This document shows, piece by piece, positions 49,940 through 53,907 of a stretch of 64,000 nucleotides of DNA. The DNA is taken from contig JAGMVK010000008.1 of the NCBI GenBank assembly GCA_020747065.1, positions 434,001-498,000 of the forward strand. Direction: 5' to 3'. Source of the DNA: Cadophora sp. MPI-SDFR-AT-0126 (lineage: Eukaryota > Ascomycota > Leotiomycetes > Helotiales > Ploettnerulaceae). Both the position numbers and the translations under genes were made by a program. The notes under the pieces were generated by a model. It was not told where the DNA came from, did no database searches, and saw only the letters and a program-made list of their open reading frames with translations. The stretch's first letter is position 1; the number at the start of each line of letters is the position of its first letter.

Positions 49940-52900
49940 ATGAAGCCTCAACATGACTCCAACCAGGATCCTTACTCTGCTCCTCAGGTCTACTATGGAA
50001 CGACTTTCGCCTCCGAGAGGAAGGGAAGAATAAACACGTATAGCATAAACCTTCAAAGATCTCTTGTGGGAGGCGAATGGGATGAATCGGGCTATCGGCC
50101 GAAGTATACTCATGCAAGACGAGGCAGTTATGGTAGGCCAACAGACATCAACCAGAGACGTACTTAGTAACAGTTTCATGTAGATGAGACAATGCTAGGT
50201 GGCAGGAAGTTTCTTGTTAATGTCGATACAGCTTTGGAAAAACTCCGAATGCAAGAAGATACAGATGGGAATCTGCAAATAACAATTGAGGATAAGGGCC
50301 CTAAGGTGCGGTTCATTCGATATGCTAGCATGTCATGTAATTTACGTGCCACAGGTTTTCTCTTTAGGGACGGCATCCTCCAACGGATTCAGGAGAGCCG
50401 ATATCAGAGGAACATATCAACTCTCTAATCTTCTCCAAGAGCTTCTTTTCGCCAAGGAATACGGAAGAAGACAAATCATCCTCGACGAGGCACGCTTAAA
50501 TGAGAACCCTATCAACAGAATATATCGCTTGATCAAAGATAGCTTTTGGCCTGAGTTGACTCGCGACATGAGCGAAGCCGGTATTGAAACAGCGTTTGGT
50601 AGTGATAATGAAGACTCGGCTTCTCCATTGCAACGCCGTATCTATGTTCCTCGAAGTGCTCCTGAGCAATACGATTTCTATGGCCACTTATCGCAAAGGA
50701 GGCCAGAATTAGGGATATCTGTTGAATGGATTGAGAACAACATCACGCCAGAGTATGTCAAGTCGATCAAAGAACGACCTGGCCTCCTGGCGTTAGCTAC
50801 CGCAGATCCTGAGCAGGATCGGAATGCGAAGGAGGGGATCAAGTTCTTGCCGTATATCACATCCGGTCGGAAACGTGATCAATTCCATGGGTGGGATAGC
50901 TATTTCAACGTCCTGGGTCTGCTTAGCCACGAGGAGATCAAGCTTGCACTATCGCTAGTAGAGCACTTTTGCTTTTGCATCAAACACTATGGACACGTGC
51001 CCCAAGGCAATCGGTCTTACTATCTAACGCGATCATCACCTCCCTTTTTAACGGACATGGCATTGCGGGTATACAACAAGATCAAGCACGAGGAATATGC
51101 ATTGGCGTTCCTGCGGCGTGCTCTGTTAGCATGCATTAAAGAATACCATGCTGTGTGGATGATGCCTCCGAGGTTTGATCCCATCACAAACCTATCGAGG
51201 TATCGCACAGGCGGCGCTGGTATTCCCACAGATTTGCAAGTGGATCTCGCAGAGCAATTGAAGTCGTATGCAACGAAATATGGAATGTCTTTGGATGCCT
51301 TCACAGATGCGTATAATGCCGGAGTAGTCGAGGACGGGGATCTTTATACGTTCTTGATGCACGAGCGCGCGATGCAAGAATCAGGGCATAGCTTCTCCTC
51401 CCGCTTTCGAGGACGCTGTGCAAACCTGGTTACTATTGACCTGAATAGTCTTTTGTACAAGTATGAGAAGGATATTGCGCAGACGATTAAATTGCACTTC
51501 GCGGATCGTTTCGAGGTTCCTGCAGATATCTGCGTGGGAAACATGCCTGCTGGAGGGTACATAGATCGAAGCACGCTTTGGGAGAGACGCGCAAGGAGGC
51601 GAAAGCTAGCCATTGACAGATATCTCTGGAACGAAGGAAAAAAGATGTATTTTGACTACGATACCGTCAAAAGGGAGCAGAGTACTTCTGAATCCGCGAC
51701 AGCATTCTGGCCGCTGTGGGCAGGTCTTGCAAGTCCAGCCCAAGCACAACAGCTCGTCTCGAACGCTATACCACGCTTCGAGGCAACAGGAGGCATATCA
51801 GCTACTACGGAGGAGTCGAGAGGTTTGGAAGCATCCGAACGACAGAATGTTCAATGGGACTATCCGTATGGCTGGGCACCCCACCAAGTATTACTCTGGA
51901 GTGGGCTCGCAATGTACGGCTACCAAGACGTTGCCGAGAGGCTTGCGTACAAATGGCTTTTTGCAATCATCAAGTCCTTTGTCGACTACAGTGGAGTTAT
52001 AGAAGAGAGTTATGATGTCACAAGAGTTATGGATCCTCAGCGCCGTAGTATAGGAAGAGACCATCAGTTTCTCAAGGGCGTCTTGAAAGATAGGTAAGTT
52101 CATTTCACCCATCTTGTGCTCTGCAATATCTCATCTACTAACTATGCTCAGATCTACGTGGGTCAGCGCAAGCTTTGTTTGTGGTCTTCAAATTGCCAAT
52201 CAGCACCAAATACGATGCTTAGGAGCCATGGTTCCTTGGGATACGTACTGTTATGAAATGACGCGCTGGGAGCAATCAAATCTGGATTCGGAATCCGAAT
52301 TTCCTGTTGACGAGACTGTTACCGAAGCTTCAAGAAAATCACAAGAGATAGCGTCGAACTTGACTATCTTGAAATCTTTGCAGAGTCAGTCTGAGCATAG
52401 AAAAATGAGCATAAAAGTCACCAAACGCATCATAGCTCGTTTTCGGCTCAAACAGGTTCCCTCAGATAACGGAATTGTCCCTTTTCGCAAAGACGATGCC
52501 AAAGTCATTGGCAACTACACTTATCCGGCGACACAGAATTCAGTCGAAAAAGTGCCTCCGGCAATTCGTATACAACCTGCTAGCGATCGTCTTAATCGCG
52601 ACCTGCTGGGTAGAAGCCCCTGGCGAAGAAGGTCAGTATCGTCTGTTGACTTAGGACTGCCTCTGGATATCTCGAAAACACTCGGCAATACCCAAAGCAA
52701 TAGCCGCCTTACAAGAAGTGAGCGAAGATTCTCAATCTCGTTCCTACCGAGATCTGGCTCTGTGACAGATGACCTCGAAGAGGAAGCGACCAAGTCTGAT
52801 GCATTTCATGTCAGCTTCAAGGATACAGAAAATCTTCCTTTTCAACATGTTAAGCTCCTCGGCCATGGCGCTTATGGAGTCGTTGAAGAAGTATCATATG

Positions 52901-53907
52901 CCGGTATCTCTACCAGATCGTCCCGAACTTTTGCAAGAAAAGTCATTCTGGTCATCAAGGGAAGGGGAGCTGGTGTGCTCGAAAGTTTCAGGCAAGAAGC
53001 CAGCATCAACCGGCGACTTCGTCACAAACATATCACGAGTCTCCTATGGACATACGAGGTACTCACAGCCAAGGGTTCTGTGAGAGAAGTGGGCATGGTC
53101 ATCACACCGGTTGCTCAACTTAATCTGGCAGAGTTCCTGGAACTGTGCGAAGCGGATGAGAGAAGAGAAGCCGATACGGAAATTAGCAATCAGGGACATC
53201 GACTAGCCTGCCTTGAACGTTGGTACGGCTGTCTTGCGAATGCTATGACTTACATCCACGCACAAAGGATCCGGCACAAAGACATAAAGCCAACGAATAT
53301 ACTGGTCAAAGACGATAACATCCTGATAGCAGACTTCGGACTGTCAAAGCGGTTCAGCGACGAAACGACAGAAACAAGAAGCACCGCCGGCTTCAAGACA
53401 CCCGGCTACTGTGCCCCTGAAGTCGCGGCGCATGAACCAAGAAGCAGAGCATCAGATATCTTCTCCCTAGGTTGCGTCTTTGCAGAAATGACGACTGTGT
53501 TGGCTGGAGAGAAACTTTGCACCTTCGAGGAGATGCGTGGACCTCCCGGAGCAAGAGCGTTCCAACTCACCCTGAACTCTGTGCTTACATGGCTCCTGCA
53601 CTTGGCCAGACGTTTGAGGAGCCATAGAGGCTCGCTCCACCCTCCAGTGGAGCCAGTGCGATGGACGTGGCTTATGCTAAATCCAAAGAAGGAACGTAGG
53701 ATATCTGCAGACGGGCTTAGTGCGACAATTATGTCTGTGAGAAGTATGTCTATGCAATACTGCGAGTGCGAAGCCAGCAAAAAGTTTATTTCGCTCCCGG
53801 GCTCCTCTGGAAAATTAGAAACTGTGGATAGTAATCCTTCGTGGCTGGGTGTGCTACCTAGGGATGGTGGAAGCACCAGTGAACCAGTCCAGCTATCATG
53901 GGGTTAA
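49940..53907 (+). CDS. Neutral trehalase (GH37) fused to a Ser/Thr protein kinase, 1269 aa; trehalase active-site Asp replaced
   Basis: Exons 49940-50132, 50184-50305, 50355-52093 and 52152-53907 join in frame to 3810 nt; donors are GTAGGC, GTGCGG and GTAAGT. Residues 1-730 are a neutral trehalase: N-terminal RRGSYDE phosphosite, calcium-loop motif DTDGNLQITIED (91-102, roughly), KVFSLGTASSNGF, GWDSYF, QWDYPYGWAP (605-614) and IEESYDVT (general-base Glu region, 655-656). In the ESGHD motif the catalytic Asp is Ser451 (ESGHS). Exon 4 encodes the trehalase end (WVSASFVCGLQIAN), a Ser/Arg-rich linker, then a full kinase domain at about 916-1205: GHGAYGVV, Lys948, HKD with Asp1062, DFG Asp1079, APE 1106-1108. 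The domains share one exon without a stop, so fusion is read directly. Function as a trehalose-responsive kinase is inference. Confidence 0.88.

Follow-up and report, generated by a model that had tools for sequence, protein, structure and literature searches.

The current analysis describes a predicted fungal protein that combines, in one reading frame, a neutral trehalase lacking its catalytic acid with a serine/threonine (Ser/Thr) kinase. The gene occupies positions 49940-53907 on the forward strand of a 64,000-nucleotide stretch of the Cadophora sp. MPI-SDFR-AT-0126 genome (assembly GCA_020747065.1, contig JAGMVK010000008.1, positions 434,001 to 498,000), which we refer to in its entirety as the window. 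Neutral trehalase is a textbook enzyme under the control of separate kinases, Ca2+, and 14-3-3 proteins. With moderate confidence, we interpret the product of this gene as a sensor, i.e. a single protein in which a dead trehalase gates the kinase carried on the same chain. A preliminary description of the window had already proposed the in-frame fusion, and this is borne out by an open frame of 1,269 residues, by Pfam matches to both domains, and by the same architecture in a protein of Cadophora sp. M221. The predicted architecture is common to two Cadophora species.

Removal of three introns from 49940-53907 leaves a single frame of 1,269 residues with its sole stop codon at the end. The four exons join via GT...AG introns and were picked from 198 stop-free combinations by their likeness to known trehalases, while the same first three introns are found in the public model of this gene (P0001). 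Along the encoded protein, Pfam recognizes the neutral trehalase Ca2+-binding domain (Trehalase_Ca-bi, residues 82-111, 59 bits) followed by the GH37 trehalase domain (Trehalase, residues 139-699, 431 bits), both over the cut-off, and then, beyond a linker, the Ser/Thr kinase (Pkinase, residues 916-1133, 113 bits). The 1,269-residue protein matches 5 Pfam families, none of which is a NACHT, HET, or repeat domain. The last exon remains open from the trehalase C-terminus through the whole linker and into the kinase, which contains no intron in this model, and the chance of 200 open codons is p ~7e-5 if equal base use is assumed. The RRGS site (residues 60-63) and the kinase thus lie on one predicted chain, as previously described, and we infer that the product of 49940-53907 is made as one chain. 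An assembly error joining two genes was rejected in view of the same architecture in the separate M221 assembly, and a pseudogene was rejected in view of the undamaged frame, the intact kinase residues, and the similar M221 protein. Scans of composition, Rfam, and bacterial-type promoters yielded nothing useful.

The hypothetical protein IFR05_011208 (P0002) of M221 resembles that of the window in its two-domain architecture, its length (1,269 residues), and its lost catalytic acid; it differs in sequence (56% identity over 100% of the length) and its record bears no functional name. Identity is unevenly distributed along the two chains, reaching 0.77 in the Ca2+ domain, 0.65 in the trehalase, and 0.71 in the kinase, with values of 0.37 at the N-terminus, 0.30 in the tail, and 0.20, 0.30, and 0.27 in three pieces of the linker, where the frame nevertheless stays open. 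The proteome search for a trehalase joined to a kinase, which the preliminary description had envisaged, found this protein as the sole case among the matches listed: it is the only one with a kinase partner among the 120 proteins listed as trehalase homologues and the only one with a trehalase partner among the 232 distinct proteins listed in the kinase searches. The preliminary description knew of no described protein with such an architecture, and searches of the open-licence literature found no paper on a trehalase-kinase fusion, such a domain architecture, or such a pseudoenzyme. In a midpoint-rooted tree of 42 trehalases, the window and M221 proteins form one clade (100/100) together with proteins from Rhexocercosporidium (P0003) and Leptodontidium (P0004). 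Inside this clade, the other three members stand apart from the window protein (100/99) and the M221 protein pairs with that of Leptodontidium (95/78). Across kinase residues 870-1269, the window and M221 proteins are 62% identical, versus 42% for the next match. For this reason, we prefer a scenario of one fusion in a common ancestor, which would have been followed by later loss or mis-annotation in Rhexocercosporidium and Leptodontidium.

The case for lost catalysis derives from a comparison of the four clade members with 116 other homologues (117 in some tests). We take D478 and E674 of yeast Nth1 to be its catalytic residues. Numbering was assigned via alignment to Nth1 (5jta), in which 478 is the Asp of ESGHDT and 674 the Glu of VEKYD. 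According to the source of the motif list, both catalytic residues sit in motifs 4 and 5 (PMC10969515). The D478 column contains Asp in 116/116 other homologues and Ser in 4/4 clade members. Signature motif 1, which elsewhere reads PGGRFNExYGWDSY (pattern PGGRFxExYxWD[ST]Y), is SGRKRDQFHGWDSY in the window, and its Arg and Phe, both found in 116/116 others, are altered throughout the clade. Likewise, each of the 116 others has the Gln of RSQPP, versus Ser in the entire clade. Also rewritten is the lid segment AEYGNQG...EGFGW, most columns of which are conserved in no fewer than 113 of 117 homologues. Motif 2 (QWD[YF]P...W) is kept as QWDYPYGWAP, and motif 5 of the window reads ESYD. A placement of E674 within EGFGW, where it would count as lost, was rejected, since the alignment numbering locates it in EKYD with the Glu kept. 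Because the catalytic acid, motif 1, the RSQPP Gln, and the lid loop are all changed, the trehalase domain is probably a pseudotrehalase that does not hydrolyze trehalose. A catalytic residue lost across 4/4 orthologues, alongside an active-looking paralogue, is the pattern expected of a pseudoenzyme.

Among near-invariant columns, 78-86 of 265-278 are changed in each clade member, whereas the highest number in the other 117 homologues is 10 (median 1). Depending upon the treatment of gaps and ends, 56 (gaps not counted), 61, or 63 columns are changed in all four. At the 61 columns obtained when gaps are treated as changes, the window and M221 proteins agree at 37 (61%) and all four proteins are identical at 29, whereas the baseline agreement between window and M221 is 40% at 73 columns that vary in other homologues. 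The new residues consequently look held rather than drifting, which fits a new constraint acting on a remodelled trehalase domain, although ancestry shared before the split contributes to the agreement. Arg152, Asn196, and Gln207 of TreA are presumably the residues that hold the sugar in GH37 structures, and their equivalents are changed in all four clade members, so the ligand may not be trehalose itself. The trehalose-responsive kinase suggested in the preliminary description may still apply in a modified form: the fold, the Ca2+ loop, and the RRGS site are kept, as is the catalytic Glu, but the sugar-holding residues are not.

The order of the trehalase domains is that of yeast Nth1 (PDB 5jta, 5n6n, 5nis, and 5m4a), to which residues 9-719 align with 656 bits. 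The fusion protein also has the RRGS site, the Ca2+-loop residues, and the catalytic Glu in common with Nth1, and is distinguished by the Ser in place of D478, the rewritten motif 1 and lid loop, and the added C-terminal kinase. The retained loop residues D90, D92, N94, Q96, and D101 are presumably its Ca2+ ligands. RRxS sites flank the trehalase barrel on both sides (S63, S846, and S879). For the yeast switch, three papers describe how protein kinase A phosphorylates RRxS and 14-3-3 binds, and how 14-3-3 and Ca2+ together fix the regulatory domain against the catalytic domain, with the flexible lid being stabilized (PMC9523730, PMC10847541, PMC7806596). By analogy, we infer a gating mechanism in which the fusion protein would keep the input of the Nth1 switch, with RRxS phosphorylation, 14-3-3, and Ca2+ fixing the regulatory domain on the trehalase barrel. 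The output would be swapped, such that this movement releases or positions the kinase in place of hydrolysis. The altered pocket may act with or without a bound ligand, and a single 14-3-3 dimer could link trehalase and kinase by binding RRGS at the N-terminus (S63) and one of the RRxS sites in the linker (S846 or S879).

On the output side, the kinase elements listed in the preliminary description are present where it had placed them (Lys948, Asp1062, DFG at 1079-1081, and APE at 1106-1108, together with a Gly loop). The Gly loop, ATP-binding Lys, alpha-C Glu, HxD Asp, DFG, APE, and alpha-F Asp are all found in both the window and M221 proteins, and in an alignment with 50 chosen relatives each of these landmarks is matched in at least 48, except for the third Gly of the loop (22/50). 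With the catalytic residues present, phosphotransfer activity is predicted. The alignment runs on to R1201 and C1222, which correspond to the C-terminal Arg and Cys of the relatives. These relatives are Pezizomycotina kinases, and among the 232 distinct proteins listed (one listing covering 120 of 812 matches, with candidates of ~298-946 residues and fusion-length chains outside the range) many contain Ank, TPR, NACHT, HET, YTH, or other partner domains. We did not find a family name for these multidomain Ser/Thr kinases. The window kinase shares with them the kinase core, the HKDIKPxN motif, the C-terminal Arg and Cys, and the frequent presence of a partner on the same chain; it is set apart by its trehalase partner, which among the proteins listed recurs only in that of M221. 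A kinase also appears among the N-terminal domains of NOD-like receptors (NLRs) in a fungal NLR survey (PMC9815663). The genome of the window (54 Mb) contains 63 further matches to the kinase, many of them short and probably ordinary kinases, with the best-scoring one exhibiting 41% identity. Of the matches scanned, one (L011:733-3738) shares its open frame with a HET domain.

The genome also encodes a catalytic-looking, canonical paralogue (contig C1:3249818-3251455), which is a neutral trehalase with intact catalytic motifs. As in the fusion gene, its coding sequence is broken at GPK/V and ahead of FGW; a stretch before DETT has intron-like ends when judged by eye. Given the matching intron positions, the trehalase part of the fusion looks like an old duplicate that retained its gene structure. 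There are two matches to the neutral trehalase Ca2+ domain in the genome. In the paralogue (C1:3249588-3251455 and flanks), the Ca2+ loop reads EATNGN for EDTDxN, having lost two Asp that are kept in 116/116 other homologues. The paralogue and the fusion protein have thus lost complementary parts of one enzyme, and they may divide its tasks between them or act together in a complex. Five matches to the trehalose-phosphate synthase family (PF00982) are present as well, so the sugars of the pathway are likely to be at hand. Weak trehalase matches of 22-24 bits (cut-off 21) and ~50-100 residues occur at three further loci (L003, L004, and L005 on contigs C20, C19, and C23, respectively).

Several observations weigh against a sensor composed of a dead trehalase and a kinase. 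The public model of the gene yields a product of 723 residues, which has its first 716 residues in common with the 1,269-residue product, but, with 52245-52383 also spliced out, it stops at VSLSIEK* and lacks the kinase. The Rhexocercosporidium and Leptodontidium proteins are annotated as trehalase only, and no separate kinase half from their genomes is found among the 120 of 812 kinase matches listed, which is weak evidence because the kinase half of the window, despite its presence in the DNA, is missing there too. By annotation alone, two fusions would require fewer steps than a single old fusion, which needs two losses or annotation errors, and the tree program warned that long branches (0.81 for the window, 0.63 for the canonical paralogue) may join falsely. 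Within the protein itself, the Pkinase match spans profile positions 2-192 of 263 (191/263) and leaves the end of the C-lobe unmatched, while the catalytic Glu is retained in three of the four clade members (Gly in that of Leptodontidium). Lastly, the columns changed in all four comprise 19/60 motif columns versus 44/199 other near-invariant columns (p = 0.17), and a clustering of the changes in catalytic motifs was rejected on this basis. Since the changes are spread, the trehalase domain appears to have been remodelled as a whole. Taken at face value, the public model would imply either that 52245-52383 is an alternatively spliced intron, with the fusion produced only from unspliced mRNA, or that the kinase is separate or unused. 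We consider this unlikely. The intron is used in P0001, its acceptor is good (ending TTTGCAG), a possible branch point (CTTGAC) can be seen by eye, and the genome project of the strain collection included transcriptome sequencing and employed the Joint Genome Institute (JGI) pipeline (PMC8664821), presumably for this strain too, the number of which was not found in the main text of that paper. However, the donor GTACTG is poor, albeit no worse than the donor GTGCGG of accepted intron 2, and 139 bases are over twice the 49-58 of the other introns. Moreover, the matches listed include no annotated kinase half to go with the public model, and the annotation of the M221 gene shows a fusion whose linker is open. 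Codon usage was dropped as an arbiter of the 139-base stretch, since another frame scores as high (0.079 per codon, versus 0.076 in frame). The reference scores are 0.083 (standard deviation 0.059) for the kinase and -0.067 (standard deviation 0.096) for non-coding sequence, and the accepted trehalase C-terminus just before the stretch scores only -0.066.

Other interpretations accept the fusion and assign a different role to its parts. A further-reaching one, which we regard as a tentative possibility, is that of a one-chain intracellular metabolite receptor kinase, in which catalysis was abandoned and the pocket refitted to a new ligand, with the binding of ligand, Ca2+, and 14-3-3 being coupled directly to the kinase. 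The candidate ligand would be an antibiotic that inhibits trehalase, or else a sugar of the trehalose pathway, phosphorylated or not. It is rather unlikely, though partly compatible with a sensor, that the fusion protein partners and regulates the catalytic neutral trehalase on C1, which it would bind and either phosphorylate or restrain. The two Ca2+-domain proteins of this genome do show complementary losses, as the paralogue lacks two loop Asp and the fusion protein keeps both, but the binding of the two proteins is a conjecture and Nth1 is not known to have a partner subunit other than 14-3-3. A kinase that works by itself, with the trehalase part attached as a passive or decaying scaffold, seems distinctly unlikely. 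Such an arrangement would be in keeping with a kinase family that is joined to many unrelated domains among the matches listed, so that fusions may be frequent, and with the change of ~30% of otherwise near-invariant columns in each clade trehalase. Contrary to decay, the frame is undamaged in two diverged lineages, trehalase identity (65%) is far over that of the linker, and the window and M221 proteins share the new residue at 37/61 changed columns. The mechanism favored in the preliminary description, an active trehalase switched on by its own kinase via RRGS phosphorylation, is most improbable. It had in its favor the RRGS site and kinase on one chain and the kept catalytic Glu (E656), but weighing against it are the Ser for the catalytic acid in 4/4 clade members, the changes in motif 1, RSQPP, and the lid loop, and the intact second trehalase elsewhere in the genome.

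If the protein is indeed a sensor gated by a dead trehalase, it would have a parallel in yeast Gal3, a sensor derived from a metabolic enzyme as a non-catalytic paralogue turned regulator. Unlike Gal3-like sensors, the fusion protein carries its output domain, the kinase, on the same chain. A lineage that has kept the switch, lost catalysis, and gained a kinase would then constitute a natural experiment in the conversion of an enzyme to a receptor, and the sensing of trehalose-pathway metabolites by a dedicated kinase in fungi would become testable. Automatic annotation can hide such fusions, as the public record of this gene reads as an ordinary trehalase.

Table. Coordinates of the predicted trehalase-kinase gene and its features within the window.
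Feature	Position	Strand	Remarks
Exon 1: start codon, N-terminal regulatory tail with RRGS	49940..50132	+	Boundary agrees with P0001
RRGS, residues 60-63	50117..50128	+	Aligned with RRGS site of yeast Nth1
Intron 1, 51 bases	50133..50183	+	
Exon 2: Ca2+-binding domain	50184..50305	+	Residues 82-111 match PF07492
EF-hand-like Ca2+ loop, residues 90-101	50258..50293	+	D90, D92, N94, Q96, D101 kept
Intron 2, 49 bases	50306..50354	+	Canonical paralogue split at same GPK/V junction
Exon 3: bulk of (pseudo)trehalase domain	50355..52093	+	
Rewritten signature motif 1	50862..50903	+	SGRKRDQFHGWDSY replacing PGGRFNELYGWDSY
S333, replacing Gln of RSQPP (motif 3)	51036..51038	+	Window reads RSSPP
S451, replacing catalytic acid	51390..51392	+	Nth1 D478, motif 4, SGxD
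E656, retained catalytic Glu equivalent	52005..52007	+	Nth1 E674, motif 5, EK[YF]D
Intron 3, 58 bases	52094..52151	+	Canonical paralogue split at same place
Exon 4: end of rewritten lid loop, trehalase C-terminus, linker, kinase, stop	52152..53907	+	
139-base stretch	52245..52383	+	Intron in public model, giving 723-residue product without kinase
Linker, ~residues 719-905	52252..52812	+	20-30% identity to M221
RRRS site, residues 843-846	52624..52635	+	Common to window and M221
RRFS site, residues 876-879	52723..52734	+	M221 counterpart RRHS
Protein kinase domain, Pfam residues 916-1133	52843..53496	+	Family similarity extends to Cys1222
K948, ATP-binding lysine	52939..52941	+	
D1062, catalytic aspartate (HKD)	53281..53283	+	
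DFG, residues 1079-1081	53332..53340	+	

Elsewhere in the window, the upstream neighbour of the fusion gene (46624-48972, reverse strand) combines an FAD amine-oxidase-type oxidoreductase with a C-terminal NAD-binding oxidoreductase domain in one frame and is possibly another fusion. Further away, a HeLo protein encoded at 25217-26068 (reverse strand) carries a HET-s(218-289)-type prion domain (34.5 bits, cut-off 32.2) and lies divergent to a NACHT-ankyrin NLR-like frame (26591-30238, forward strand). The N-terminus of the latter, GNINIFVDDRSSG, is in our judgment reminiscent of a HET-s-type amyloid motif, and the two genes look like a HET-S/NWD2-like pair. A 974-residue open frame at 6945-9869 on the reverse strand encodes a C-terminal CHAT domain (148 bits).

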